DNA of 54,329 bases from Prevotella sp. GTDB taxonomy: Bacteria > Bacteroidota > Bacteroidia > Bacteroidales > Bacteroidaceae. Each line of letters begins with the position of its first letter. The first letter of the stretch is position 1. The stretch spans positions 1,607 to 55,935 of the forward strand of contig JAFLSF010000008.1 in NCBI GenBank assembly GCA_022511045.1. The letters run 5' to 3'. A program made the translations under genes and the position numbers. The notes under the pieces were generated by a model, which saw only the letters and a program-made list of their open reading frames with translations, had not been told where the DNA came from and searched no databases. Below are positions 17,678-53,626 of the stretch, in pieces.

Positions 17678-19658
17678 GAGTTGAAATTTGCATTCGGTTC
17701 TGAGTTAGTAAAAATACGATGACACAGAATTCTATAAATAAGATTGCAGTTTGTAGCAAGTTCTCATTGTAAAATTGTATAAGGATTACTTCTACAAGGA
17801 AAGTATATATACAACAATATACGGGAATACCCTGTCGACATTTGGAATATATCCACCCAAAAGTACTACCATATAAAATACCGAAAAATGCTACTCCTCG
17901 CATTCCAAAATCATTGTAGAAAGGTTGCATGATGGTATATACGTTTGTTGGTATAGGAACAAATACAAATTCTTGTAACCTATTTATATATTGGAAATTA
18001 AAGCCTAATTTATTTATATATGGATAGATTGAATTGAATGTGTTAGCACCAAAATTATCTGTAATTGTAATTGTCAATCTGTCAAAAGCAACAATAGGAG
18101 ATGTGACATATATAGCAAAAAAGTCGGAAAAGCTAATCTCCGTTGTACTATTGGCATCTGACCGCATTATATTGAAAAAGAAAAAAAAGACAATTATAAC
18201 AGCCATAGATAGTCCTATAGTTCGTATTTTAATATATTTTTTTTCATATAAAACGAATAGTGTGCCAAGTATCATAATTAAAATACCACTTTTTTCCATC
18301 ATCGCTAACTCAAGCAGCATGTTGGCTATAATACTTATTATGAGTTGCCATTTGGGAATTCGAGGATATAACCATATTGCTACAACAAAAACAGCAAAAT
18401 TAACACCTTGGGTATAATTTAACCAGCCAGCGGTGACATTTTCTTCTAGTATGAGTAGGCGGATATTTAAGAAAATATTGTCCAGATCGAACATACTGAC
18501 TACATCCCAGATGGTTTTTGCATATAGAATAGTCATTAAGATGGAAAGTACAAATAGAAAATGGAATAAATTCATATTGGCATGAACTACTTTCCTAAAA
18601 TCCACTTTATCTCTTATTTGTGGGTTATCAAAAAGCCAATAAGATATGATAGATGTAGGAATAAATGTTATAATCCATAAAATAAGACATTTGATAAATT
18701 TTGGACCGATAGGATAAAGAAAATTGCCTTGTGTTTTGTATAGTAAAAAAACAATACTCCAAATTGCTATGGTAAGTATCCAGGGAGAGAAAATATCGCC
18801 GAAATCTGTAATCAATATTCTCTCTTTCTTGATTTTTATATATTGTTGATAGAAGAAAACAAGAATTAGAGAAATAGAAAGAAAACTAAGGATATAACTT
18901 GCAAGATGTTCATTGGTAGTTTGAGGGACAGAAATGCTTTTTATCGTTACGAATGAATCTACAGTCTTATGTATCAATGCTTCTTTACGAACACAATCAG
19001 TAGTTGCATCTTTATATTCTTTATAAGTAAGATTAAGTTTTCGCCGTAATTCTTCTGCTTTAGTTTTTTCTTGGTAAGCATGATAATTAAAGTGGGAGTC
19101 GAAGTATCCTGTGTATTCTTTCTGTGCTTGCTTATATGCTGATGCAGTCTGAATATATTTTAATTTGGCATTTTCCAAATCAGAACGTGCAATGTCTTGT
19201 CGATAGGATGTAATACGGTGCTGCAGTGTGTGCACAATACTATCAAGTAACTGGGCCGCAATAAGAGCATCTTTATCAGTAAATTGTATGAGGAGTGTGT
19301 TGGTTTTGCTGTGGTATGAATATTCAATGTTGTCAATAATAGTTTCGATGGTGTCCGTAACACCCAAATACTCTCCATATGTCATTTGTTGCTTAATAAG
19401 TTGCATATGTGATATGGAACGGGCAAAGTCTTCTGTCTTTAATAATTGACAATAAATTTCAATATCATTCATGCCTGTATTGGCTCTGATACCAAGCAAA
19501 GATTTGATTCCAATCTTTTTTCCTATTGCTAAATCGGTTTCTCTGTATTCATCACTAATTTTAGTATATGCCGAATACTTTTTAGGTACACAAATCCACA
19601 CTACTATGGCGAGTAGTGTTGCTAAAATGGTGGTGAATATGTATGGATGTTTTTTCAA
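17658..19658 (-). CDS. Wzz-like co-polymerase N-domain fused to Wzy-like oligosaccharide polymerase C-domain
   Basis: 666 aa continuous ORF: TM1 - periplasmic coiled domain - TM2 (about 1-275), then multi-TM polymerase-like region. Confidence 0.75.
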   Translation of the reverse strand: MKKHPYIFTTILATLLAIVVWICVPKKYSAYTKISDEYRETDLAIGKKIGIKSLLGIRANTGMNDIEIYCQLLKTEDFARSISHMQLIKQQMTYGEYLGVTDTIETIIDNIEYSYHSKTNTLLIQFTDKDALIAAQLLDSIVHTLQHRITSYRQDIARSDLENAKLKYIQTASAYKQAQKEYTGYFDSHFNYHAYQEKTKAEELRRKLNLTYKEYKDATTDCVRKEALIHKTVDSFVTIKSISVPQTTNEHLASYILSFLSISLILVFFYQQYIKIKKERILITDFGDIFSPWILTIAIWSIVFLLYKTQGNFLYPIGPKFIKCLILWIITFIPTSIISYWLFDNPQIRDKVDFRKVVHANMNLFHFLFVLSILMTILYAKTIWDVVSMFDLDNIFLNIRLLILEENVTAGWLNYTQGVNFAVFVVAIWLYPRIPKWQLIISIIANMLLELAMMEKSGILIMILGTLFVLYEKKYIKIRTIGLSMAVIIVFFFFFNIMRSDANSTTEISFSDFFAIYVTSPIVAFDRLTITITDNFGANTFNSIYPYINKLGFNFQYINRLQEFVFVPIPTNVYTIMQPFYNDFGMRGVAFFGILYGSTFGWIYSKCRQGIPVYCCIYTFLVEVILIQFYNENLLQTAILFIEFCVIVFLLTQNRMQISTHEQTVS

Positions 19659-25047: not shown

Positions 25048-25205
25048 TTGTTGAAATATGGTTTTGTGTTTCCATCTGCAAAGGTAATCATTTTGTTTGA
25101 AGTATGCAAACGGGTAGCCTGATATTTTGCCTTTTTTCGCGGATAAACGCCTTGTTGTGCTTCAGTGCAGGCTTCGCAATCCGCAAGAACGGCTTAGGCA
25201 CTGGG

Positions 25206-25352
25206 TGAGGAGTAAGCTCACCATTTGTATACTCCCTGTATACAAGTTGTATACCAGGTGTATACAGTTTGTATATCAGGCGTATACAACTTGTATAGGC
25301 CGTGCATACAAGTGGTATACAACCGCCTCGCAACGATTGACAATACTCCTCA
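25206..25352. repeat. Phased palindromic array, 22-bp (11-bp) period
   Basis: GTATAC-like hexamers begin at 25227,25238,25249,25260,25271,25282,25293,25304,25315 (exactly 11 bp apart); flanking units TGAGGAGTAAGCTCA (25206) and TGACAATACTCCTCA (25338) in the same phase. Confidence 0.85.
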
Positions 25353-25462: not shown

Positions 25463-25470
25463 TATTTTTG
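25463..25470 (+). promoter_or_regulatory. Bacteroidetes -7 promoter element TATTTTTG
   Basis: TATTTTTG upstream of CDS at 25534. Confidence 0.45.
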
Positions 25471-45632: not shown

Positions 45633-46799
45633 CTATCCTAAACTGGATTTATACCACTCAAAGAGTCGGCGTACGCCCTCGTCGATCTCTACCTTGTGTG
45701 TCCATCCTAAAGAGTGGAGTTTGGACACGTCTATGAGTTTGCGCATCGTACCGTCTGGCTTGGTAGTATCAAACTCCACCGTACCTGTGAAGCCTACGGT
45801 GCTGACTACTAACTCGGAGAGTGCACGAATGGTGAGCTCTTTGCCTGTACCGACGTTGATGTGGCAGTTGCGTATTTCGCCTAATTGTGGTATAGCTCCG
45901 CCGCGACCAACAGCGTGGTTGCGGTCTACGGCACCATCGGTTGAGACACCATAATGAACCGACGAATATTTCTCAATGCCGATAATGTCCTTAAAATCGA
46001 CGTTCAGTAGCACGTGGACGGAAGCATCGGCCATATCTTCGCTCCATAAAAATTCGCGGAGTGGCGTGCCTGTTCCCCATAATACCACTTTATTATTATA
46101 AATGCCATACTTGGCCAACACGCTCAAAATATCGTCACATGATGACGAGCCATTAACTCCCTCGACGGGACGAATGTCAAGGTCGCGTCGGATGGCCAGC
46201 CAGTCATCGTCGTGAATAAGTTTAGCCAGATACACCTTACGCATCATAGCTGGCATGACGTGCGAATTTTCCAGATGGAAGTTATCGTTGGGGCCGTAAA
46301 GGTTGGTAGGCATGACGGCTATGTAGTTAGTGCCGTATTGCAGGTTGTAACTCTCACACATCTTTAGTCCCGCAATCTTGGCAATGGCGTACTCCTCGTT
46401 GGTATACTCCAAAGGCGACGTCAGCAAGTAGTCCTCGCGCATGGGTTGGGGCGCATTTTTCGGATAGATGCAGGTCGAGCCCAAAAAGAGCAATTTCTGA
46501 ACGTTGTGGGCATAAGCCTCGGAGATGACGTTGCATTGCATCTGCATGTTCTGCATGATGAAGTCGGCGCGATAGAGCGAATTGGCCATGATGCCGCCAA
46601 CAAATGCGGCTGCTAACACAACGACCTGCGGACGTTCCTCGTCGAAGAATTGGCGCACGGCCTGTTGGTCTGTTAGGTCCAACTCCTTATGACTTCGCCC
46701 GATAAGGTTGCTATAGCCCCGTTTCTCCAAATTGTTCCAGATGGCAGAGCCCACCAGGCCATGATGGCCAGCAACGTATATTTTGGTATTCCTATCCAT
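45633..46799 (-). CDS. fcl: GDP-L-fucose synthase
   Basis: KIYVAGHHGLVGSAIW, LGSTCIYPKNAPQPM, PTNLYGPNDNF. Confidence 0.93.
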   Translation of the reverse strand: MDRNTKIYVAGHHGLVGSAIWNNLEKRGYSNLIGRSHKELDLTDQQAVRQFFDEERPQVVVLAAAFVGGIMANSLYRADFIMQNMQMQCNVISEAYAHNVQKLLFLGSTCIYPKNAPQPMREDYLLTSPLEYTNEEYAIAKIAGLKMCESYNLQYGTNYIAVMPTNLYGPNDNFHLENSHVMPAMMRKVYLAKLIHDDDWLAIRRDLDIRPVEGVNGSSSCDDILSVLAKYGIYNNKVVLWGTGTPLREFLWSEDMADASVHVLLNVDFKDIIGIEKYSSVHYGVSTDGAVDRNHAVGRGGAIPQLGEIRNCHINVGTGKELTIRALSELVVSTVGFTGTVEFDTTKPDGTMRKLIDVSKLHSLGWTHKVEIDEGVRRLFEWYKSSLG

Positions 46800-46906
46800 A
46801 TTCATACTGGTCGACAAGTTGTTCTGGATGCAAAGTTAAGCCTTTTCCGCGATACCACCAAACTTTTCGTACTTTCATCGCCAACGAATCGGCATTTTGT
46901 TAAACA

Positions 46907-46987
46907 CGAGTATTATTCTTGTCATTTTTGAGCCCTATTCTCAAAGGCGGTGAGGACTATCCTCGTTGCTTGTGAGGCCTATCCTCA
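46907..46987. repeat. Phased palindromic array, 22-bp period
   Basis: TGAGCCCTATTCTCA (46929), TGAGGACTATCCTCG (46951), TGAGGCCTATCCTCA (46973), degenerate CGAGTATTATTCTTG (46907); all 22 bp apart. Confidence 0.85.
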
Positions 46988-46994
46988 AAAAACA

Positions 46995-47048: not shown

Positions 47049-48134
47049 TTATTCTTTGTCCATCTGTGCTTTGAGGAACAGTTTCTTAACGAATTTCATG
47101 TCGTGTTGCACCATAATCTTCACCAGTTCGGGGAAAGAAGTCTTTTGCGGATTCCATCCAAGCTTAGCTTTAGCTTTGGATGGGTCACCCAAAAGTTGGT
47201 CTACTTCGGCAGGGCGGAAATACTTCGGGTCAACCTCAACGAGCGCTTTGCCCGTAGCCTTGTCATACCCCTTCTCGTCGATACCGTCTCCGCGCCACTC
47301 CAGTTCAATGCCTACCTCGTGGAAGGCCAACGTGGCAAACTCGCGGACAGTATGGTATTCGCCTGTAGCAATGACAAAGTCGTCGGGCTCGGGCTGCTGT
47401 AGGATAAGCCACATACACTCTATATAGTCTTTGGCATAGCCCCAGTCACGCAATGAGTTCAAGTTGCCTAAATAGAGCTTGTCTTGATAACCGAGGGCGA
47501 TGCGGGCGGCTGCCAACGTGATTTTACGCGTGACGAAAGTCTCGCCGCGACGCTCAGACTCGTGGTTGAAAAGAATACCGTTGCAACAGAACATATTGTA
47601 CGACTCGCGGTAGTTCTTCATTATCCAGAATCCATAAAGCTTCGCAACAGCGTAAGGGGAGCGAGGATAGAAGGGCGTAGTCTCTGATTGAGGGACTTCT
47701 TGTACCTTACCATATAGTTCTGAGGTGGAGGCTTGATAAATGCGACAAGTATCTGCCAACCCGCAGATGCGAACGGCCTCTAACAGGCGGAGTACACCGT
47801 TTGCGTCGGTATCAGCCGTATATTCGGGTACGTCGAACGATACTTTAACGTGGCTCTGTGCTGCTAAATTGTATATTTCAGTAGGGCGAACCTCGCCGAT
47901 GACGCGGATGAGGGAAGACGAGTCGGTCATATCGGCCCAATGAAGGTTTACCAGACGGGCTTTCTTCATGTCGCGAACCCATTCGTCCAGATAGAGATGC
48001 TCGATGCGTGCCGTGTTGAACGAGGACGAACGACGCATGAGGCCGTGCACTTCGTAGCCTTTATCAATGAGGAATTCGGCAAGATACGAACCATCTTGTC
48101 CTGTGATACCAGTAATTAAAGCAATTTTCTTCAT
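47049..48134 (-). CDS. gmd: GDP-mannose 4,6-dehydratase
   Basis: [43 protein letters not shown]. Confidence 0.95.
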
Positions 48135-53329: not shown

Positions 53330-53410
53330 GTTCTCCTATACTCGTTGGCCGTGAGTCCTATACCCATCGTTTTTGAGTCCTATTCTCGCCGCCCGTGAGT
53401 CCTATTCAGC
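53330..53410. repeat. Phased palindromic array, 22-bp period
   Basis: TGAGTCCTATACCCA (53352), TGAGTCCTATTCTCG (53374), TGAGTCCTATTCAGC (53396), partial unit at 53330; all 22 bp apart. Confidence 0.85.
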
Positions 53411-53432
53411 GTACATATATCTTCGGCAAAAA

Positions 53433-53626
53433 GTGACACAGAATACAGTATACATTTTTTTGAGTCCATTTCCTTATTTTCTGGAAAAACCTTATATACA
53501 ATATTCTATAATATATATATAATATATTATATATATATTATAGTGTTATAACATCCTCTATTCCTTACAAGATAGAGAGCGCTCATTTTCCGACTTCAAA
53601 AAACTGTATTCTGTATTCTGTGTCAC
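53433..53626. repeat. Nested inverted-repeat element (MITE-like candidate)
   Basis: 31-bp arms 53433-53463 / 53596-53626 matching at 29/31; perfect 38-bp palindrome CTATAATATATATATAATATATTATATATATATTATAG at 53506-53543. Confidence 0.8.

Follow-up and report, generated by a model that had tools for sequence, protein, structure and literature searches.

The window, a stretch of 54,329 nucleotides from Prevotella sp. contig JAFLSF010000008.1 (genome G000), carries at 25206..25352 an element of seven 22-bp units in a single register, each unit a 15-mer followed by a 7-bp spacer. It lies between a leftward DUF6078 gene and a rightward glycosyltransferase-like gene, and like all array features below it is given without strand. 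Read from 25206, the 15-mers are TGAGGAGTAAGCTCA, three copies of TATA-N7-TATA, TATAGGCCGTGCATA, the hybrid TATACAACCGCCTCG and TGACAATACTCCTCA. The core of the element (25227..25320), which we call type A, contains nine GTATAC-like hexamers in 11-bp steps, starting at 25227, 25238, 25249, 25260, 25271, 25282, 25293, 25304 and 25315; of these, six match GTATAC perfectly and the other three differ at a single position. The preliminary description had recognized these hexamers and read them as TATA-N7-TATA 15-mers with 7-bp spacers, and this observation is confirmed. Tandem Repeats Finder reported the array at period 22 (score 85) and period 11 (score 60). Dinucleotide shuffling of this intergenic region (500 replicates) never gave a hexamer run longer than 2, against 9 observed, which rules out a chance origin of the array.

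The core is bracketed by TGAGGAGTAAGCTCA at 25206..25220, extended by the arms GGTGAG/CTCACC, and by TGACAATACTCCTCA at 25338..25352. As described previously, the two are 132 bp apart and share a 10-bp inverted repeat, in which the 10-mer TACTCCTCAC pairs with GTGAGGAGTA. They also keep the common 22-bp register, and these bracketing TGAG units are more than inverted repeats: they belong to a second unit type, B, which is itself palindromic and thereby accounts for the inverted ends of this copy. A hybrid unit at 25316..25330, TATA-CAACCGC-CTCG, forms the junction from type A to type B, and other copies of the element have a B unit in the position equivalent to the left bracket. Outside the array, consensus matches to the -7-like box TAnnTTTG occur at 25463..25470 on the + strand, 110 bp from the array and the sole one before the glycosyltransferase-like gene, and at 25079..25086 on the - strand, 120 bp away, before the DUF6078 gene.

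Related arrays in the same genome

A scan of the whole genome (2.14 Mb, 98 contigs) for further copies found 265 forward and 273 reverse matches to a three-hexamer pattern, versus 3 and 3 for a reversed-pattern control. The window array belongs to a set of dozens of such non-coding arrays carried by this Prevotella genome, clearly contrary to the absence of other copies that the preliminary description had named as counting against it. Finer statistics come from 419 kb, made up of the window and 20 further stretches on contigs partly picked for holding arrays; in this sample all GTATAC pairs less than 130 bp apart, except one, are separated by multiples of 11 bp, and a lag analysis gave 20-25 arrays at exactly 22 bp versus mostly 0-6 at lags other than multiples of 11. 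Type B units have the form YGAG-NATAGGC-CTCR with random 7-bp spacers, and they both build arrays of their own and flank GTATAC cores. The two types share one 11-bp register in 67/67 A-to-B pairs, and 38/38 B-to-B distances are multiples of 22.

Two type B arrays lie in the window itself. At 46921..46994, in the gap between open reading frames 45633-46817 and 47049-48134, are three GAG-N7-CTC units at 22 bp (GAGCCCTATTCTC, GAGGACTATCCTC and GAGGCCTATCCTC), and a further array with a 22-bp period at 53331..53419 lies upstream of a glutamyl/glutaminyl-tRNA synthetase gene and is followed by a long TA-rich run (53492-53542). A third unit type (CGTACTTTCGT / ACGAAAGTACG) extends the register beside types A and B at two other loci of this genome, L091 (~18600-18700) and L095 (~2430-2520). 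Several contigs start or stop within arrays, fitting a dispersed repeat.

Alignment of fifteen type A elements, each from a different locus, favored a single register (median best identity over 88 bp 0.81, versus 0.70 in the next register), with cross-locus identity reaching 0.98, and adjacent units inside one element are 0.71 identical. Because elements at different loci resemble each other more than neighboring units do, the copying was of whole elements, not single units. The collections searched contained no similar sequence in phages or plasmids. Ends were not uniform among copies, the window copy having its 10-bp inverted pair and other copies ending in varying type B units. The conserved outer motif AAATCCCNAATTT was considered as an element end and rejected, being present at only three places, and inspection by eye found no target site duplication beside the window copy.

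Genes were called with a simple script, and by these calls the arrays are nearly all intergenic. The genes beside arrays were unrelated to one another, and none were shared as regulatory targets. Arrays occur in all gene orientations: in genome G042 they were present in 16/27 convergent, 20/89 tandem and 6/30 divergent intergenic regions, and in G000 the corresponding figures were 1/11, 7/49 and 7/16. A general preference for convergent genes was therefore rejected, being true of G042 only and reversed in G000, and because the favored orientation differs across species no uniform regulatory role is visible. A TAnnTTTG box was found between array and gene start in 29/33 cases in G042 and 18/23 in G000, which places the arrays mostly upstream of promoters.

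The same geometry in other genomes

Among 119 same-genus relatives, the type B pair pattern was matched in a single genome, once and with three mismatches, so the letters of type B are essentially private to this species. The geometry is not private. An exact 22-bp lag peak was also present in unbiased stretches of four relatives, and it persisted in Tandem Repeats Finder output, where indels are allowed. The same architecture is thus found in other Prevotella with unrelated motifs: the unit is AAAAGGT-N-ACCTTTT in G010 and ATTTG-ATG-CAAAT in G016, and G042 has about ten motif families at 22 bp, including TTGGACAAACGTGTCCA, TTATACACGTTTGTATAA, GTATCATCAGGGTGATAC and GAAGAGGGCGTTTCTTC. Over 500 kb of G042 there were 61 arrays at lag 22, versus 0-14 at lags not multiples of 22. 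Two other genomes of the genus, G058 and G065, had few arrays, and four genomes of other Bacteroidales families had none or one. The larger elements of G042 include mirror-image forms, in which reverse-complement flanks in the same 22-bp register surround a tandem-palindrome core (L185:7632-7930, L189:4057-4396, L193:135-330 and L203:2504-2708).

Arrays with an 11-bp step were met more widely, in samples that were thin or biased toward arrays: GTATAC-type arrays in Prevotella sp. RGIG2070 and RGIG1804, Solitalea, Paraflavisolibacter and Chitinophaga, and 11-bp arrays in other genera of the same family. In the distant Bacteroidota Solitalea, Paraflavisolibacter and Chitinophaga (L053-L084) the GTATAC arrays are intergenic and occupy several loci per genome. 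Strong 11-bp arrays (GTATATGTTGG... and CTACTCCCTTG...) also occur in G190 (L225, L226), from another genus of the family.

Array turnover could be followed between the related species G042 and G003, in which neighboring DNA is 84-94% identical. One orthologous array of some nine units was ~71% identical and aligned almost without gaps; a second G042 array was absent from G003 between conserved flanks.

Conserved half-sites and candidate proteins

When arrays were folded at the dyad, symmetry exceeded that of column-permuted controls, and went beyond what tandem periodicity explains, in five genomes. In six genomes with differing motifs, among arrays first filtered to a dyad pairing of 0.5 or more, the identity of adjacent units peaked 4-7 bp from the dyad, was lowest in the spacer and was usually low at the center; the profile was clearest in G042, G000, G010 and G100. 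These peaks imply a half-site spacing of ~11 bp both within and between units. This is the geometry expected of a DNA-binding dimer that would contact a pair of neighboring major grooves, with such sites recurring at two-turn intervals along the same side of the helix. Mismatches read on the gene-sense strand comprised 94 GT and 101 AC, so the wobble signature of a structured RNA is absent. No Rfam family matched above its gathering score, and the only hits were chance microRNA matches far under the cut-off.

Several protein families were considered as partners. Three Lrp/AsnC genes (PF01037) are found in G000, and nearly all genomes have 2-3 copies, equally so where arrays are lacking. An Lrp expansion was rejected as an explanation for this reason, and Lrp is a poor candidate for all motifs because 2-3 copies cannot serve the roughly ten motifs of G042. 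HU-HIG proteins (PF18291) number 23-30 in each of G042, G003 and G058 and 1-9 in the other genomes searched; they show no consistent link to the arrays, as G000 has 3 copies and G058 has many copies and few arrays. The RAYT Y1 transposase (PF01797) had no match in G000 (89% complete), G042, G003, G100 or G106.

Interpretation

The reading that best accounts for these observations, to which we give a probability of about one half, is that the arrays are helically phased, dimer-binding DNA scaffolds with an architectural role, dispersed by copying. Imperfect palindromic dimer sites would stand in a row at a pitch of exactly two helical turns (22 bp), and for that reason the putative dimers would line up along a single face of the helix, where cooperative binding could bend or wrap ~150 bp. 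Whole elements are copied into new intergenic sites; spacers drift freely, and half-sites and the 22-bp register are retained. The window element, situated between divergent promoter-like boxes, would then be a local architectural or topological element, perhaps an insulator or a supercoil or looping anchor, rather than the operator of a single gene. A protein-binding scaffold was among the options of the preliminary description and, if taken to be read from a single face of the helix, is the best supported of them, given half-sites 4-7 bp from the dyads, the 22-bp pitch and a register that holds across unit types. The 22-bp peak in the species' own genome and four relatives, dyad symmetry, half-site conservation and intergenic location beside unshared genes all favor the scaffold reading, as do whole-element copying, the missing RNA signature and the mostly ungapped orthologous array. 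There is also precedent in Lrp-type regulators, which bind clusters of imperfect palindromes whose alignment follows the helical repeat, with centers two or three turns apart, and wrap DNA (PMC2995911). On the other side, about ten unrelated motifs in G042 would require equally many paralogous proteins, orientation preference relative to genes varies by species, and part of the pattern is explained by tandem duplication followed by drift.

The main rival, which we consider rather unlikely as a full account, is a non-autonomous, MITE-like mobile element with a 22-bp minisatellite core, spreading selfishly with no host role. It fits the stronger match across loci in one register than between adjacent units, the 10-bp inverted repeat at the ends of the window copy, and the 23-nt minisatellite inside BrickBuilt MITEs (PMC4596501). 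The MITE with a minisatellite core proposed in the preliminary description is half upheld, in that whole elements are copied between loci. The edges of copies differ and run into 22-bp units of other types, the inverted ends are explained by palindromic type B units, and selfish spread alone leaves unexplained why unrelated motifs in other species have a common 22-bp pitch and half-site profile. The MITE-like reading could also hold as the way in which a scaffold spreads. An improbable alternative is a neutral origin by slippage and palindrome-correcting template switching, in which 22 bp would be a property of the replication or repair machinery and binding would not be selected. Arms that remain complementary despite letter changes between families are as this predicts, as is array gain and loss between related species, but similarity should then be equal across columns, whereas conservation is seen in the half-sites and not in the spacers. 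Types A and B, unrelated in sequence, moreover occupy one register.

Two further explanations we regard as very improbable. Stem-loop-like units, with arms of 4-8 bp and retained complementarity, might be small hairpins of a transcribed RNA element acting in processing, stability or regulation; G-U pairs, however, are not in excess of A-C mismatches, Rfam offers only the chance hits, and TAnnTTTG boxes separate most arrays from gene starts. The preliminary description had also considered a multi-site operator. A classical one controlling the flanking DUF6078 and glycosyltransferase genes would suit the position of the array, which has a promoter-like box about 110-120 bp away on either side, the two being divergent. 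As such the idea is not supported, as the family has dozens of copies beside unrelated genes and a repressor site would be expected closer to its promoter than ~110 bp.

Relation to known systems and significance

A literature search, with most subscription literature outside its scope, found no report of 22-bp palindromic units or helical phasing in Prevotella, and the nearest published descriptions are PINSR and BrickBuilt. PINSR is a 188-bp repeat of Prevotella intermedia and nigrescens with 177-184 copies per genome; like our arrays it is intergenic and restricted to a lineage. It lacks terminal inverted repeats and is partly conserved between strains, and no 22-bp palindromic structure was reported for it, a distinction drawn from its description since the consensus is given only in a figure (PMC4755523). 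The BrickBuilt MITEs of Porphyromonas gingivalis, also a member of the Bacteroidales, occur in 19 copies with a defined leader and tail and a 23-nt unit, AGAYCATARTATCCTCTCRTRTG, and resemble the arrays in being intergenic, dispersed and built of short tandem units; they have inverted ends, as does the window copy (PMC4596501). The arrays do not match this consensus, having period 22 and another sequence, and no palindromic 15+7 units were described. Short intergenic tandem repeats also include the TAACTGA heptamers, found in some Bacteroidetes, but these are direct repeats of 7 bp, most of them immediately before a start codon, and are neither palindromic nor helically phased (PMC4679880). 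Multi-dimer operators of Lrp/AsnC proteins share with the arrays palindromic dimer sites in adjacent major grooves, two-turn spacing and a single face (PMC2995911); the arrays differ in the large number of motifs that a genome can carry and of intergenic sites occupied, with no expansion of Lrp paralogs. REP/BIME sequences with RAYT are likewise dispersed intergenic palindromes, but the arrays keep a strict 22-bp tandem register and, as noted, the Y1 transposase was not found. In TATA-tetrad nucleosome-positioning DNA, TATA steps recur at the helical period; here the step is 11 bp, not 10, and the parallel extends to type A units only.

More tentatively, the arrays may represent an undescribed chromosome-architecture system of Prevotella, perhaps of Bacteroidota more widely, with around a hundred or more intergenic dimer-site arrays in an 11/22-bp register and rapidly diversifying dimeric proteins, in which geometry would be conserved as the recognized sequence turns over. 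If this is right, a genus that is dominant in the gut and the mouth would have its intergenic DNA laid out in helical steps for an undescribed protein. That would open a way into nucleoid organization in the Bacteroidota and provide a possible explanation of lineage-specific repeats such as PINSR. Constant geometry with changing letters would also amount to a natural experiment in the co-evolution of DNA-binding proteins with their genome-wide sites.
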